Origin: Thermosynechococcus sp. NK55a
GTDB lineage: Bacteria > Cyanobacteriota > Cyanobacteriia > Thermosynechococcales > Thermosynechococcaceae
Reading direction: 5' to 3'
NCBI RefSeq assembly: GCF_000505665.1
Contig: NC_023033.1
Coordinates: forward strand, 992,001 to 1,056,000
DNA length: 64,000 nt
Both the position numbers and the translations under genes were made by a program. A model generated the notes under the pieces. It had not been told where the DNA came from. It was given only the letters and a program-made list of their open reading frames with translations, and did not search any database. The first letter of the stretch is position 1. Each line of letters begins with the position of its first letter. Below are positions 1 to 60,108 of the stretch, one piece after another.

Positions 1-2897
1 TCCGCAAGGGCTTTTTTCTGTTCGATTTGCTCGTGGATCTTTTCCTCAAGGGTACCCGTGCAGACAAATTTATGGATTTGGACATTGCGGGCTTGACCAA
101 TGCGGAAGACGCGATCGCTGGCCTGATTTTCTACCGCTGGGTTCCACCAGCGATCGTAGTGAAAGACATGGTTAGCGCGAGTCAGATTGAGACCCACGCC
201 CCCTGCCTTGAGGGAAAGGATAAAGACCCTGGGGGCTTCGGGATCGTGCTGAAAGCGTTCCACCATGAGTTCCCGCTGGGCTTTGGGGGTGCGTCCTGAG
301 AGGAAAAACACCTCCTGCTGGAGCACCTTTTCCAGGTAGGTTTTCAGGTGGGTGCCAAACTCCGCAAATTGGGTAAAGACAAGGGCGCGATCGCCCACTT
401 CCTGAAGCTCTTGCAGCATTTCTATTAGGCGTTGCAATTTACCTGAGCGAGCGGGGGCATAGTCTTCTTGCTTGAGATACTGGGCAGGATGGTTGCAGAT
501 TTGCTTCAGCTTGGTCAGGGTGGCCAAGATATTGCCCCGCCGCTGGATGCCTTCACTATTTTCGATGGCAGCAAGGGAGTCTTCCACCACCGCAGTGTAA
601 AGCTGCATCTGCTCTAGGGTGAGGCCGCAATAGACCAGCATCTCCTGTTTTTCGGGCAGGTCTTGAATAATGCTGTGGTCGGTTTTCAGGCGCCGCAGAA
701 TGAAGGGTTGGACATAGGTGCGCAGGGCGTTGAGGGAGCTGGTGTCGCCATAGCGTTCAATGGGACGGACATAGCGGTGTTGAAAGTAGGTGCGATTGCC
801 CAAGTACCCCGGATGGAGGAAGTCCATAATTGACCAAAGTTCGAGCAGGCGGTTTTCTAGGGGGGTTCCCGTCAGGGCAATGCGAAACTGGGCGGACAGT
901 TCCCGCGCCGCTTGGGACTGTTGGGTGTTGGCATTCTTGATGTTTTGGGCTTCATCCAGGACCAAGTGCTGCCACAGAACCGGTTGCAAGGTGGCGCGAT
1001 CGCGCTGCAGGAGGGCATAGCTGGTCAGAATCAAGTCATGGGTTTCCACCCTTTTGAGGAAGGCCTTGCCCTTGGGGCGATCGCTCCCGTGGTGGACATA
1101 GGCCCGCAAGGTTGGGGCAAACTTTTGGCACTCCCGCAGCCAGTTCCCCAGCACCGACGTAGGACAGATCAACAGTGTCGGTCGGTAGGCACGTCCCTTT
1201 TCCTTGAGGTGGAGCAAAAAGGCCAACAGTTGAATCGTTTTCCCCAACCCCATATCGTCTGCCAAGCAAGCCCCCAGCCGCCAGCGTTCCAAGAAACTCA
1301 GCCACGCCACCCCCCGTGCCTGGTAGGGGCGCAGTTCACCACAAAACTCCTGCGGTGTTGGCACTGGATCCAAGCTTTGTTTGCCCGTGAGGCCATCCAA
1401 GAGTGTCTGCAGCGCATCATTGGTGTCTAAGCCAAGAATCGGCAACTTGGCCACCGTCACCGTATCCCCCGTAGCAATGCGCAGTGTCTCTGCAAGGGAG
1501 AGTTGGGTCTTTTGGGGAGACTGGAGAAACTCTTGAGCAGCCTTGACCTCTTGGGGGCGCAGCAGCACCCATTCACCATTGAGATAAACCAGGGGAGTCC
1601 CTTGGCGGCGCAGTTGATCAAAATCTGCTTCCGAGAGGGGATGCTGCCCCAACTGCAACTGCCACTGAAACTGCATCAAGCTGTCAATACTCAAGCCGCT
1701 AGTGGCCGGCGGCAATGTGGCAATTATTTTCAGACCCAAGCGATGTTGGGCGCTATTGCGGCGCAAACTCGGTGGCAAAATGATCGCAACCCCCTGCTGC
1801 TCAAGGGGCGCAATTGCACTTTGCAAGAAGGCATACACTTCGGTGGTGTGCAGCGTCAGACCCAGGGGGGAGCGTTCTTGAAGACTGCGATCGAGGGGAC
1901 GATAAATGCGGGAGGCCAAGCCCAGTCCCCGCAGCAGGGTCTCTTGGGGCTGCCAGAGCACCTGCCCTTGATAGAGGAGGGCCTCTTGGGTGCATTGCCA
2001 AATCGCAGCTGCCGTTAGCATCGTGTCCGTTTCCCCTTCAGTTTGCAGCCCAAAGGCCAAGTGCCAGTCACCATCGGCGGTCTCTGGAGGTACCAGTTGC
2101 AGAGCCAGTCGCCATTGGGGACGCAGATCCAACTGCTCGCGGTAGGGTTCTTGCCAGCGGTGCAGGCGTTCAATGAGGGGAGGTGGCAGTTCCGTGGTTT
2201 GACCCGTTTTCAGGAAGGCTAGCCAGTGGCTATGCTCTTTGGCCAAGCCCACTTTGGGCAATTCGAGGTCAGCAAGGGCAGTGTGCAGATAACCCTGTAG
2301 GGTGTGCTGCAGAAAATCCGCCAGTAGGTCTGAAGCATGGGGGGGAAACTGCAGCGCCTCGCCATTGGCTTGATAACAGCGACACAAATCGGGCATCTGC
2401 CGGCTAAATTCACGGAAGCGATCGCGATCGCCCCCGTGGGTCAGCAGAATCCGCCAGCCCTCTGGTGTCGGCAGGTACTGGCCGCGCACAATTAAATCCA
2501 GCAGCCAGCGACTAACGTGCAGCCAATAGCGCAGATCCTCCCCGATGGACCCACCGTTTGGATCGTGAAGGCTCAGTTGATGCAGTTGTGCCAAAACAGC
2601 CGTGGCGGGAATTGCCCAACCGGGCACCTGCCATAAAAACAGGGGTTCCCCCTTGAGGGCGGCAAGCGGTGGCGGGAGCAATTGATGCCCCTGAATCTGT
2701 GCCGGTAACGCAATGGAAGTGGAACTTGGGCAGGCTGTCTCCCCAATAGGTATTTTGCTCTGGGTGGCGTAGGGATAAACCGGGATAGCAGGCGGCTCCC
2801 AAGGGGTGATTACCTGGGTGAGCGATCGCCATTCTTCCGCCCAAATGAAAAACTGTGGCGCTGGCCCTAGGAGCCAGGTGCCATGTAAAATAGCCAT
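1..2897 (-). CDS. SNF2/Swi2-family helicase-like ATPase, C-terminus cut by window edge
   Basis: The frame is open from an ATG at 2897 to base 1, about 965 codons, so the stop lies outside the window. The first ~500 residues are a poorly conserved region typical of bacterial SNF2 proteins. The ATPase core then follows: Walker A DDMGLGKT at about residues 546-553 and a DEAQ box (LDEAQNIKN) near residue 647 in place of DEAH. The last visible residues (GTLEEKIHEQIEQKKALA) match the end of the second RecA-like lobe. The family remodels DNA-protein complexes and includes the RapA/HepA relatives; the exact target here is unknown. It sits 27 bases downstream of the GGDEF/EAL gene on the same strand and may be co-transcribed with it. 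Confidence 0.9.
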   Translation of the reverse strand, partial: MAILHGTWLLGPAPQFFIWAEEWRSLTQVITPWEPPAIPVYPYATQSKIPIGETACPSSTSIALPAQIQGHQLLPPPLAALKGEPLFLWQVPGWAIPATAVLAQLHQLSLHDPNGGSIGEDLRYWLHVSRWLLDLIVRGQYLPTPEGWRILLTHGGDRDRFREFSRQMPDLCRCYQANGEALQFPPHASDLLADFLQHTLQGYLHTALADLELPKVGLAKEHSHWLAFLKTGQTTELPPPLIERLHRWQEPYREQLDLRPQWRLALQLVPPETADGDWHLAFGLQTEGETDTMLTAAAIWQCTQEALLYQGQVLWQPQETLLRGLGLASRIYRPLDRSLQERSPLGLTLHTTEVYAFLQSAIAPLEQQGVAIILPPSLRRNSAQHRLGLKIIATLPPATSGLSIDSLMQFQWQLQLGQHPLSEADFDQLRRQGTPLVYLNGEWVLLRPQEVKAAQEFLQSPQKTQLSLAETLRIATGDTVTVAKLPILGLDTNDALQTLLDGLTGKQSLDPVPTPQEFCGELRPYQARGVAWLSFLERWRLGACLADDMGLGKTIQLLAFLLHLKEKGRAYRPTLLICPTSVLGNWLRECQKFAPTLRAYVHHGSDRPKGKAFLKRVETHDLILTSYALLQRDRATLQPVLWQHLVLDEAQNIKNANTQQSQAARELSAQFRIALTGTPLENRLLELWSIMDFLHPGYLGNRTYFQHRYVRPIERYGDTSSLNALRTYVQPFILRRLKTDHSIIQDLPEKQEMLVYCGLTLEQMQLYTAVVEDSLAAIENSEGIQRRGNILATLTKLKQICNHPAQYLKQEDYAPARSGKLQRLIEMLQELQEVGDRALVFTQFAEFGTHLKTYLEKVLQQEVFFLSGRTPKAQRELMVERFQHDPEAPRVFILSLKAGGVGLNLTRANHVFHYDRWWNPAVENQASDRVFRIGQARNVQIHKFVCTGTLEEKIHEQIEQKKALA

Positions 2898-2924
2898 GCC
2901 AATATTTTAATTAATTAATTTTAA

Positions 2925-5900
2925 TTAATGAGAATGAGCTTTCAGGAGCGATTCGAACTCTTCGGCGGGCAGGGGAGGGCCAAAGAGATAGCCTTGACCG
3001 TAGTCACATCCCAGTTCCTGAAGTATTTGCAGTTGCCTTGGTGTTTCAATGCCCTCAGCAACAGCCCGGTAGCCCAACTGCTGGCTCAGGAGTAGAATCA
3101 TGCGGGTAATTTGCAAGTTGCGTTCATTTTCCTCCAGTTGGCTGACAAAGGAACGATCTACCTTGAGGTGTTGAATCGGCAGGCTCTGGAGATAGCTGAG
3201 GCAGGAATAGCCTGTGCCAAAGTCATCAATGCCAATTTCAATATTGCGATTCCTGAGCAATTCCAGCAAATTCAGCATTTCACTTCCCAGTTCAATGCTA
3301 ATCCTTTCGGTGAGTTCTAGCAGCAAATGCTGTCTGGGCAGGGGGTACCGCCGCTGAAGGGTATCCAGATACTTCAGGAAAGTGGCATCCTGGAGCGTCT
3401 TGGCAGAAACATTGACGCCGAGCCTTAAATCAGCTGGGATGCCATACTGCTGTTGCCAAGTCCAGAGCTGCCGACAGGTCTGCTCTAGGACCCACTGATC
3501 CAGCGCCACGATCAACCCTGTCTCCTCGGCAATGGGGATAAAGTGTGCCGGTGAGACAAGACCCCGCTCAGGGTGTTGCCAGCGCACCAAGGCCTCCATG
3601 CCGACCAATCGCTGACTCTTCAAATGAAAGACCGGCTGGTAAAAGACTTGCAATTCCCCACCGTTTAGAGCGTGGCGCAGATCATGTTCAAAGTGGAGCC
3701 GCTCTAGAACCTGTTTGTGCATCTGGGCATTAAAGACAGCATAGCGCTTTGTTAACTGCCTTTTAGCCGCATACATCGCAATATCGGCATCCCTTAGGAC
3801 GGCTATACCGGTTTCATACTCGTTTTGGCAAAAGACAACGCCGATACTCGTACTGAGGAAAATTTGCCGCTCCTCCACCCTCAGGGGCTCCTGAAGGCGA
3901 TGGATAATTTGTTCGCACAGGGCGATCGCCCTCTGGATGTGGGGCACCTCGGTGAGCAGAATCGCAAACTCATCTCCGCCCAAACGAGCTACCGTGTACC
4001 GATTCTCAACGAGGCACCGCAGCCAACTGGCGAAAGTCATTAGAAGTTGGTCCCCCACCCCATGGCCCAGGCTGTCATTAATCACCTTAAAGCGATCCAG
4101 ATCGAAAAATAGCACCGCATAGTAAAACTCAGGACTTGTTTGCGCCTCGGTAATTGCTGCTTCCAATTGCTCCATGAAGTAAAGCCGGTTCGGCAGTCCT
4201 GTCAAAGAATCGTGATAGGCTTGCCGATGCAGTTGAAGCTGCACTTTTACTCGAGCAGTGACATCGCGGGAGGTCGTCTGCAGTTGGTGCAATTGACCTT
4301 GACTGTTGTAGCAGGGTTTAACTAACGTCTCCAGCCACAGGGGATCCCCTTGGGCAGTACAAACCTCATAGGTTATGGGCCAGAACCTTTGCTGCTGAAT
4401 CATCTGCTCCAGTTCCTGGTTGACTCGCGATCGCTCCCAATCAGAAGAACAAAGCTGGCTAAAATGCTGGCCAAGCAGCTTTTCAGGAGGAATGCCCAAG
4501 AGGGTTTGACAAGAGGGACTCACATAGAGACATTGCCACTGCGGATCGTAGAGCCCAAGAATATCGCTGGTATTTTCCGCTAGGAACCGATAGCGTGCCT
4601 CGCTTTCCTGCAGTGCTAGTTCAATGGCTTTGCGTTCTGTAATATCAATGTTGGTACCTACCACTTTACAGGGCTGACCCTGCTCATCGTGAATCAATAC
4701 TGCTTCACTGTGGAACCAGCGGTAGGTGCCATTGCAATGGCGGAGCCGAAAATCAATATTGTACTCTGCCGCGCCGCGTAGGAACTGACGGTAGGCAACA
4801 GTAACGCGATCGCGATCCTCTGGGTGGAGTCGCTCTTCCCAATCCTCAAGACTTGCTTCTTTGGCGGTGCCAGAATACCCCAATTGCCTTCGGTAGCTGG
4901 AGGAAACACAGAAGGCCCCTGTACGTAAATCACAAAAATAGAAACCAATATTAGAGACCCGTGCCGCCAACTCTAACTGCGCCTGTTGTTCCTTAAGACG
5001 AGTCTCCGCCACCAGCCGCTCCGTGACATCCAAAACCACCGTGTACCAGACAACAGCGCCATCGGCCTCCCGTGTGGGTTGACCCGCCCCCTCCAGCCAG
5101 CGGACTTCTCCTGTGGCAGGATGAATGATGCGCCATTGACAAAACCAAGGGGTCAAGGTTTCAGCCGAACGCAGTACAGATTGCCATGTGGCTTCTCGAT
5201 CCTCGGGATGCACAAGCTGCCACAAACATTCACCATCGGCGGCAGCTGCCTCTGCCGGTACACCCCAAAGACGTTCGCACATTGGGTTGAGGTAAAGGGC
5301 ACAGTTGCGGCCATCGGGATATTGCTCATAGCGGAAAATGGCGCCAGGCAAGTGAAGCGTCGCCAAGCGAAACCGTTCCTCACTGGCGCGCAGAGCAGCC
5401 TCAACCTGCCGTCGCTCAGCCAGTTCCTGTTGTACTTGCCGGTAGAGGGTGGCTTGGTAAATGGCTACCTCCAATTGGGTGGCAACCCCACAGGCTCGTT
5501 CAATTTCTGCCCTTGACCACCCATGGGGTTGAGGGTAGGTAGATAGGCTCAGGCTTCCCCAGAGGCGACCTGCCACCATTAAGGGAATCAGTAACCAGGC
5601 TCCCGGAAAAGTAATTGCAATTTCTTGGTTAATGGGATCGCTAATTTCACGGGTATCGTCAACAATGACGATGTTCCCTGCTTTTAGATCTGCGGCAAAA
5701 GGGTTGTTGGGATCCGGAATTTCAAAACCATCGTGACGAGGAAAGTTGGGATCATGGTGATACTCAGCAATATGCCGCCAGACTCCCTGCTCCGGTAAAT
5801 ACTGCACCACAACCGCATCAACCCCTAGCCCCACGCCAACTTCCCGCACAGCCGTCTCAAAGATCACGTCGAGATCAAGGGAGTTGCGAATCGCTTGCAT

Positions 5901-58276: not shown

Positions 58277-60082
58277 TTAAAAGGGGTTCTGGGGTTCCGC
58301 CTCTTGCCAAATACGGATCAATTCTCTTGCTTCCGAGTAGAGGGGATGGGTGGGGGGGATGAGTTCGGCGGTGGCGATCGCCTGGCGGTTGTCCCGCCCC
58401 ACCCAATAGCGTGCCTGCTCTAGGATGTTGTTGCCCCACTCCACGATCAACTGGTTGGCGGTGGCATAGACACTGGAGTTGGGGGAAATTTTTTGGGCAA
58501 TAGCAATGGCAGCGGCAAGGTCGCGATCGCGACCTCCTTGGGCACGGCGCTGGGCTTCATTCAGGCGAGCCATCTCCGGATCAAGCTGCCAGCTCACTGC
58601 TTCAGTTGGAACGGGGGGGAAGAGTTCTTTGAGGCGATTTTGAGCCGTTTCATAGAGGGCACGCTGGGGACGAATTTGCTCCAGCAGTTGGCGAGCTTGC
58701 AACAGAGCTTCAGGGGTACCTTGGCGGGCAAGAATATTGGCTCGGTCAATCAGGGGTTGATCCTCAGCAATCTCGATTTGACGTTGCCACAGCCGTCGCT
58801 GATCGCGGATTTGGTCTTGGCGATAGGGACTCGCGTCTGCCAAAGGGATGTTGAGTCTGTTGATCGCAAGGTAAAGGCGGTCCACCGTACCACCACGGGC
58901 AATGGTTTGGGCTGCTGCTAAGGTTTGTAACACCTTCAGATCGGTTTGCCAGCGCCGAATGGCCTGTTGAGCGTCAAAGTAGAGGGGGCGTTCTGCGGTA
59001 ATCGTCCGGGCTTGGGCGATCGCCCGATCAATATCTTCCCCCATGCCTGCTTGGGCAAATTCTTCTGCTGCTGCTAACTTCACCACATCCTCGGCGGCGC
59101 GGGCACTCCTGACGTCTTGGGGAATCAAGCCAGCAATTCGCCGCGCTTCTTGGGGTTCGTAGCGATTCAAGGTAGCGATCGCCAATTCTAACAATCGCTC
59201 ACCCAATTCATTGAGCAATCGCCGCGCACCGGGGTAAATGTCACTGGTAGTGGGAATTCGCCGCACAATTGCAATCGCAGCGGCCAAGTTATCGGCTCCC
59301 CCCTGCGCCATGAGGGCACGTGCTTCATCCAATTGCCGATCTTCCCGTTGGGCACGGATAATCCGCTGATTAAAGGCACCAAACTGCTCCTGGGCCCAGT
59401 AACGACAGTCAACAAATTGCAACTGGAGCGAGATTTGAAAGGCTTCCCGCCATTGCAGGTTTTTCAAGGCTGCTTCAGCACGGCGGTAGATTTCTTCTCC
59501 TTTTTGCCAAATTTCCTGCCAGCGCTGAATACGTTCTTCCACCTTGGCATAGGCTGCGACCTCCCGGGGAATCCGCCGCGCAAAGCCGATCGCCCGATTT
59601 AATTGCCCTTCATGAAAGGCTACCTCTGCTAAGGCCAACACCTGATCAGACCACACCTCTAAGCGGCGATTAATCTCAGGGGCAAGGGGATGATCACGGG
59701 GCAAGTCGTCAATGAGATCAATGGCATGGAGCAAATCCTCAAGGGTGTGTCGCTCTGCCGCCTGTTGGGCGCAGTAGAGGCGAAAGGAGGCCGATGCCAG
59801 AGGCCAAAGGACAAAATCACAATTGCCGGGGGTGGTGGGTTGCCGCAGCAGCAGCCCCAGGGAGAGCCCCGAAATACCCACGGAAGTTAGCAGGGAGAGG
59901 CCAGCCGCCACTTGCCAGTGCTGCAACCAAGGCAAGTAGCGGCGCCACTGGTTGTTAACATGGGCGCCGAGACGGTTGAGTTGGCGCGATCGCCTACCAA
60001 AGCGCTTGAAGATCGCAATCCCTGCAGTTGGTTTAGTTTGATCCCGCACCGTCTCCCACTCCCCAACACTCCCAATTGGCAT
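58277..60082 (-). CDS. Membrane-anchored protein with unrecognised ~25-residue helical repeats
   Basis: A 601-residue protein with one membrane segment (about residues 58-80, QVAAGLSLLTSVGISGLSLGL) and a large domain of helical repeats. The recurring unit is roughly A-I-x-x-A-x-x-I-P-x-x-x-P-x-Y-x-x-A-x-x-x-I-x-x-W, seen for example as AIGFARRIPREVAAYAKVEE, AIAQARTITAERPLYFDAQQ, AIAIAQKISPNSSVYATANQ and AIATAELIPPTHPLYSEARE. Eight to ten copies are spread over residues 120-595. The repeats resemble TPR-like pairs but lack TPR consensus. I know no family for it. The ATG at 60082 is chosen over a TTG at 60100. Confidence 0.78.
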   Translation of the reverse strand: MPIGSVGEWETVRDQTKPTAGIAIFKRFGRRSRQLNRLGAHVNNQWRRYLPWLQHWQVAAGLSLLTSVGISGLSLGLLLRQPTTPGNCDFVLWPLASASFRLYCAQQAAERHTLEDLLHAIDLIDDLPRDHPLAPEINRRLEVWSDQVLALAEVAFHEGQLNRAIGFARRIPREVAAYAKVEERIQRWQEIWQKGEEIYRRAEAALKNLQWREAFQISLQLQFVDCRYWAQEQFGAFNQRIIRAQREDRQLDEARALMAQGGADNLAAAIAIVRRIPTTSDIYPGARRLLNELGERLLELAIATLNRYEPQEARRIAGLIPQDVRSARAAEDVVKLAAAEEFAQAGMGEDIDRAIAQARTITAERPLYFDAQQAIRRWQTDLKVLQTLAAAQTIARGGTVDRLYLAINRLNIPLADASPYRQDQIRDQRRLWQRQIEIAEDQPLIDRANILARQGTPEALLQARQLLEQIRPQRALYETAQNRLKELFPPVPTEAVSWQLDPEMARLNEAQRRAQGGRDRDLAAAIAIAQKISPNSSVYATANQLIVEWGNNILEQARYWVGRDNRQAIATAELIPPTHPLYSEARELIRIWQEAEPQNPF

Positions 60083-60108
60083 CCCTAACTCTGAGCACAA
60101 TGCCCAGT

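Follow-up and report, generated by a model that had tools for sequence, protein, structure and literature searches.

The window analysed here, a 64,000-nucleotide stretch corresponding to positions 992001-1056000 of the single-contig 2.52-Mb genome of Thermosynechococcus sp. NK55a, encodes on its minus strand a 601-residue protein, P0001, in which a single membrane helix is followed by a long array of repeats. Its features, from the N-terminus onward and in window coordinates, are as follows:

58277..60082, minus strand: whole gene, 601 aa (open frame with ATG start; orthologue identity; dN/dS).
59927..60082, minus strand: residues 1-52, basic N-terminal stretch, predicted cytoplasmic (net charge +7; low model confidence).
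59843..59926, minus strand: residues 53-80, single membrane helix (hydropathy peak 61-79; model helix 51-79).
59819..59821, minus strand: Cys88, invariant in 36 orthologues and conserved in paralogues, probable disulfide partner of Cys104.
59771..59773, minus strand: Cys104, invariant in 36 orthologues and conserved in paralogues.
59651..59773, minus strand: repeat unit 1, residues 104-144 (leave-one-out score 29.3 bits; reached by 0/1000 shuffles).
59519..59650, minus strand: repeat unit 2, residues 145-188 (28.8 bits; 0/1000).
59360..59518, minus strand: unit 3, residues 189-241, in which W192 and Y228-W229 are conserved as features peculiar to this unit; the helix pair is assigned solely from its place in the array and the model.
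59207..59359, minus strand: repeat unit 4, residues 242-292 (36.3 bits; 0/1000).
59072..59206, minus strand: repeat unit 5, residues 293-337 (9.4 bits; 6/1000; family median 18.8).
58949..59071, minus strand: repeat unit 6, residues 338-378 (37.2 bits; 0/1000).
58787..58948, minus strand: repeat unit 7, residues 379-432 (8.3 bits; 2/1000; family median 39.0).
58622..58786, minus strand: repeat unit 8, residues 433-487 (30.9 bits; 0/1000).
58580..58621, minus strand: residues 488-501, loose linker (pLDDT < 50 at 492-499), the site of an extra unit elsewhere.
58433..58579, minus strand: repeat unit 9, residues 502-550 (51.0 bits; 0/1000).
58307..58432, minus strand: repeat unit 10, residues 551-592 (39.3 bits; 0/1000).

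An in-frame TTG at 60100 provides an alternative start that would add six residues, and the plus-strand frame over 58277-60082 is full of stops. Orthologues with 85-94% identity across nearly the full length occur in eight of ten sister genomes, and by its pattern of substitution the gene is under purifying selection, with a dN/dS of 0.11-0.20 against four relatives. Its gene neighbours are mostly retained in two closely related contigs and to a lesser degree in a more remote congener. The hydropathy profile has one peak only, at residues 61-79, and together with the structural model bears out the sequence-only reading in its claim of a membrane-anchored protein: one membrane helix (~53-80) precedes internal repeats that extend to residue 592. 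The least conserved of all segments is residues 1-52, of which residues 1-32 have pLDDT < 50. The best-conserved stretch is residues 81-144, adjoining the membrane and including both invariant cysteines, and this peak suggests that a shared task is carried by the membrane-proximal end of the solenoid; the conservation may instead reflect a structural cap.

Alignment of residues 111-601 of the protein to itself gave a score of 126, as against a mean of 46 (s.d. 9.6, maximum 82) for 60 shuffles, establishing that the repeat is real. We divided the protein at a recurring tryptophan, which yielded ten units of 41-55 residues each, together spanning residues 104-592, and aligned these across 36 orthologues. 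The resulting consensus, ed..lLd.AealA..Gt..dL..AIa.Aq.IP..spLY.eAQ..I..W, has conserved positions L6, A9, G16, L21, A24, I25, A28, I31, P32, A41 and W48 in 48 columns. The initial description from the letters alone had been of eight to ten copies of a ~25-residue motif filling residues 120-595; the copy number of ten falls within that estimate, whereas the boundaries shift to 104-592 (with unit 3 placed only by position and model) and the ~25-residue motif turns out to be the second, most conserved half of the unit rather than the whole of it. Over all ten units in the 36 orthologues the final tryptophan is indeed strongly kept (84%), but the Ile-Pro pair, thought to be likewise, is not (Ile 56%, Pro 52%), and the best-kept position is the alanine of the 'AI' pair (95%).

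As a profile trained on the units of P0001 finds them by construction, we built ten further versions, leaving out in each the unit to be tested, and compared each unit with 1000 shuffles. The full unit profile recognises ten units and the leave-one-unit-out test nine, of which units 1, 2, 4, 6, 8, 9 and 10 score above all 1000 shuffles. Unit 3 scores 0.7 bits against its leave-one-out profile, equalled or exceeded by 228 of 1000 shuffles, and thus has no recognisable sequence repeat; the model helices around it run over residues 178-207, 211-223 and 227-260. Many other cyanobacterial orthologues have an 11-unit solenoid, with the extra unit placed after unit 8, at the site of the P0001 linker.

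The AlphaFold2 model of P0001, built from a 36-row alignment, has a mean pLDDT of 87.9 and is helical throughout residues 98-595, where for the most part long helices (19-36 residues) alternate with short ones (8-13 residues); a model of the core fragment comprising residues 224-441 reaches pLDDT 93.2 and pTM 0.83. After its one membrane helix the protein is thus predicted to form a superhelix of helix pairs, and the helical solenoid suspected from the letters alone is confidently modelled. In a Foldseek search with the whole model TPR superhelices, P58IPK and OGT among them, make up most of the natural matches, with E 0.003 and probability 0.98-0.99, but with TM scores of only 0.12-0.19. The four-unit fragment gives no match at E < 0.001, its neighbours being BamD, BepA, P58IPK, MamA and YbgF, of which BamD, BepA and YbgF are periplasmic proteins, as well as designed repeats and 14-3-3 proteins. 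Z reaches at most 10.4 for the whole model and 8.7 for the fragment, with TM < 0.4, and given that Z values below ~13 are common among helical repeats, as the search tool itself warns, we read these matches as indicating a TPR-like architecture and not as proof of descent. Assigning a function from the whole-model Foldseek and VIA matches was considered and rejected, since these are mostly designed repeat proteins and TPRs at very low TM and are too weak for the purpose.

In sequence searches P0001 falls below every Pfam cut-off, reaches none in NCBIfam and has no match among PDB sequences. At E <= 10 the only TPR-related Pfam models that it matches are ARM_TT21 (PF25058), its best, with 21.7 of the 27 bits required, and ANAPC3, with 13.5 of 27.2 bits; HEAT repeats, which were also considered, are absent from the Pfam scans. 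The TPR-derived ARM_TT21 is the sole Pfam model that recurrently matches the family: 15 of the 36 orthologues match it at E <= 0.01 (best E 2.2e-8), two match TPR_2, and three relatives (L052, L130 and L136) pass the ARM_TT21 cut-off, although in P0001 the match is both below threshold and confined to one part of the model. Compared with a TPR profile from its own genome, the profile-profile probability is 5% for the solenoid and 24% for the unit, with column-shuffled and reversed controls at 0.1-0.2%; together with the sub-threshold Pfam scores these values fall short of a significant alignment of P0001 to TPR. TPRs have the signature spacing W4-L7-G8-Y11-A20-F24-A27-P32, to which the conserved positions of the P0001-family unit do not conform: the spacing from alanine to proline is 8 as opposed to 12, and units of 41-55 residues depart from the TPR period of 34.

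These observations bear on whether P0001 might simply be a diverged true TPR protein, working as one, for instance like PratA in photosystem II biogenesis. In its predicted form P0001 would share with the TPR superhelices of P58IPK, OGT, BamD, BepA and YbgF the stacking of tandem antiparallel helix pairs, and several of the latter are periplasmic and function as scaffolds, which resembles our reading of P0001. PratA, named in a title in the reference list of PMC9764255 as a periplasmic TPR protein of Synechocystis, would likewise be a cyanobacterial extracytoplasmic helical-repeat protein; unlike P0001 it is described as a TPR protein, and the likeness is taken from that description. TPR structures dominate the natural fold matches and the ARM_TT21 and TPR_2 hits point the same way, but the period, the alternation of long and short helices, the different conserved residues and the scores below TPR cut-offs argue against it, and we hold true TPR membership to be possible but doubtful. 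We therefore regard the repeat as TPR-like without filing it under TPR, and as a previously undescribed one; the earlier opinion that it fits nothing known holds at the level of Pfam, NCBIfam and PDB sequences, whereas its TPR-like neighbours indicate that the fold is not wholly foreign.

Across the solenoid branch of the family a pair of cysteines 15-17 residues apart lies between the membrane helix and the repeats. P0001 conforms to this pattern, and in the full-length paralogues two cysteines recur at the place of Cys88 and Cys104; a few shorter relatives lack the membrane helix or the cysteine pair. Exactly two cysteines follow the membrane helix in 26 of the 36 orthologues, three in seven and four in three, the extra two in the last set being spaced five residues apart; with the invariant pair excluded, cysteine makes up 0.07% of the residues after the helix. 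Paired cysteines with few others are the pattern to be expected when a domain is exported into an oxidising environment. On average the 20 residues preceding the helix carry a net charge of +2.6, as against +1.0 for those following it, with the higher charge on the preceding side in 29 of the 36 orthologues, and in two repeat-bearing proteins (L138 and L137) SH3_3 domains, which we count in favour of an extracytoplasmic location, lie between the membrane helix and the repeats. With Cys88 and Cys104 invariant and hardly any other cysteine in this part of the protein, the placement of the solenoid in the periplasm or thylakoid lumen, with the N-terminus in the cytoplasm, is strongly supported by these statistical features of the sequences. 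Cys88 and Cys104 probably form a disulfide that would stiffen the start of the solenoid beside the membrane. Against this picture stands the third cysteine after the helix in the seven three-cysteine orthologues, which are those of Thermosynechococcus and its near relatives (C226 in P0001), and the pairing itself is read from conservation.

The repeat family is present in most sampled Cyanobacteriia, often in several copies, and yet P0001 is covered by none of the families curated in Pfam and NCBIfam. Matches at E 1e-3 occur in 53 of 58 relatives, and full-length orthologues at E 1e-100 in 136 of 195 sampled Cyanobacteriia genomes, several whole families lacking them; families without a match, among the unmatched genomes listed for this sample, are f2, f5, f14, f24, f53 and f54, with another 39 unmatched genomes outside that list. 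Plasmids and IMG/VR viral contigs yielded no relative. Among the matches listed from a phylum-wide scan the sole one outside the class is G088, from the same phylum but another class, whose contig C17 encodes at 1633-2643 of locus L136 a 336-aa protein with five units and no predicted membrane helix. With 40.2 bits it scores higher against ARM_TT21 than any other protein encountered, and it may represent a step towards TPR-like families, or its contig may be a contaminant.

Searches with a 48-position profile of the unit detected further repeat-bearing proteins beyond the solenoids. Pfam caspase (Peptidase_C14) domains are present in six of these (L072, L073, L125, L127, L139 and L140) and Pfam kinase domains in three (L070, L131 and L138), of which L138 also has an FHA domain. 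In both the caspase and the Ser/Thr kinase fusions the order is catalytic domain, membrane helix, repeats. A further kinase, with a GUN4-like domain (L071), had been suspected of carrying the repeat, but the unit profile finds none in it. Using the caspase domain of L140 as a query against 116 Cyanobacteriia genomes we fetched the best 30 matches, all of which have 2-5 repeat units behind a membrane helix; since the query itself bears the repeat and the matches were chosen for their likeness to it, this indicates that the association is stable within this clade and not among caspase homologues at large. At the catalytic histidine site 26 of the 30 have tyrosine (FSGYG), one has FSGHG, one FSGLG and two are unreadable, while at the catalytic cysteine site most of those readable have asparagine in an LDxN context, so that judging from these residues most of the 30 are probably catalytically inactive pseudo-enzymes. 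Before the helix these proteins have 176 cysteines in 11253 residues, as against 7 in 7598 after it.

Transmembrane caspase homologues of this kind have been noted before. According to Asplund-Samuelsson et al. (2012, PMC3501461), of the architectures found only in cyanobacterial metacaspases the commonest is a caspase domain located inside with a C-terminal membrane helix, and the cbMC-alpha-TM class of Jiang et al. (2010, PMC2853523) was defined by a p20 domain and one membrane helix with no other identifiable domain. Like our fusions this class combines a p20-like domain in the cytoplasm with one membrane helix, and three of its entries have H-to-Y and C-to-N changes; the repeat that forms the C-terminal part of the present fusions was not identified in that survey, and P0001 differs from the class in having no caspase domain. 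The accessible passages of PMC6426788 and PMC8283722 do not describe the repeat, and the openly searchable literature yielded no ligand, partner, localisation or phenotype for the family, nor any passage on it in spatial proteomics. The C-terminal half of the transmembrane caspase homologues can hence be identified as this repeat and assigned a likely location, and this opens the role of these proteins to testing. Two other leads were dropped: 'chromosome segregation ATPase', which we take to be an annotation of P0001-like proteins, is present in a proteome study of Arthrospira (Spirulina) but could not be connected with the repeat family, and slr1301, a guess, led to coiled-coil filament proteins.

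Taken together, we consider it reasonably probable that P0001 is a single-pass membrane protein with its N-terminus inside and a TPR-like solenoid of ten helix pairs outside, serving as a protein-binding scaffold. A scaffold on the membrane surface had been suggested at the outset; the cysteine and charge evidence adds that the membrane-held solenoid is very probably extracytoplasmic, while the scaffold role is an inference by analogy, as is protein binding along the solenoid. In the proposed mechanism the cytoplasmic N-terminus and one membrane helix would hold a rigid alpha-solenoid in the periplasm or thylakoid lumen, with its start next to the membrane stiffened by the disulfide, and partners would be held along its curved surface close to the membrane. 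The same type of unit has been reused as the outer part of cytoplasm-facing kinases and caspase-like pseudo-enzymes, and from this reuse it is probable that the repeat modules recognise proteins of the envelope or of the extracytoplasmic space as ligands. As P0001 has no cytoplasmic output domain, it is more likely to be a structural or assembly scaffold (or a co-receptor) than a complete sensor.

In the stronger form of the co-receptor idea, P0001 would share an extracytoplasmic ligand with the repeat-bearing kinases and pseudo-caspases and modulate them by repeat-repeat contacts. The occurrence of its unit type in kinases and in all 30 caspase homologues examined would fit this, as would the four-unit caspase fusions, in which the units mostly score best against solenoid units 8, 2, 8 and 10 in that order. 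We nevertheless think it unlikely, as the repeat-repeat contact is hypothetical and as seven Thermosynechococcus genomes, the window's own included, are among those listed as unmatched by the L140 caspase query, with no close relative of it found in them, so that there the solenoid must act without such caspases. The scaffold reading remains the one we favour for P0001. For the family as a whole, an inactive cytoplasmic caspase domain joined to a recognition domain across the membrane looks like a receptor, and we tentatively suggest that the repeat is a lineage-restricted extracytoplasmic recognition module deployed in dead caspases, Ser/Thr kinases and free solenoids, perhaps all parts of one sensing system of the envelope or lumen, where an outer helical-repeat domain would control a cytoplasmic pseudo-caspase.

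We regard it as very improbable that P0001 and the chaperone Hsp33 (hslO) are jointly linked to redox or heat stress. In 14 of 47 loci (L054, L058, L059, L145, L146, L148, L152, L153, L160, L164, L173, L175, L179 and L180) a gene that we take to be hslO is no more than four genes away from the orthologue, immediately adjacent in most and in two orientations, but it is not adjacent in Thermosynechococcus or most other families, it was named from its sequence and not by a database match, and the genes around it move with it too, consistent with inherited gene order. Beyond this gene, found in under a third of the 47 loci, the orthologues have no recurrent neighbour.

Several relatives of P0001 show further variation. 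The sole other family gene found in the window's genome (L034, within G000:C1:2183500-2189000, at ~2025-3921 of that locus) is read in three successive frames across the length of the paralogue, which suggests that two frameshifts, or else errors in sequencing, have disrupted it; it is intact in sister species (e.g. L141 and L142). In one sister genome (G005:C1) an 835-base element at L066:1450-2284 splits an L034-type paralogue after about residue 96; this element has eight nearly identical copies in that genome, is absent from the window's genome and has no Rfam match. The genome G041, which has no full-length solenoid, encodes at 1775-2695 of locus L068 a protein of 306 aa that has a membrane helix and two units but lacks cysteines; this may be the module in an early or a reduced state. 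Finally, in G010 the orthologue occurs twice with equal score, near both ends of the contig (C1:4378-6015 and 2804585-2806222), probably as an unresolved overlap of a circular assembly.
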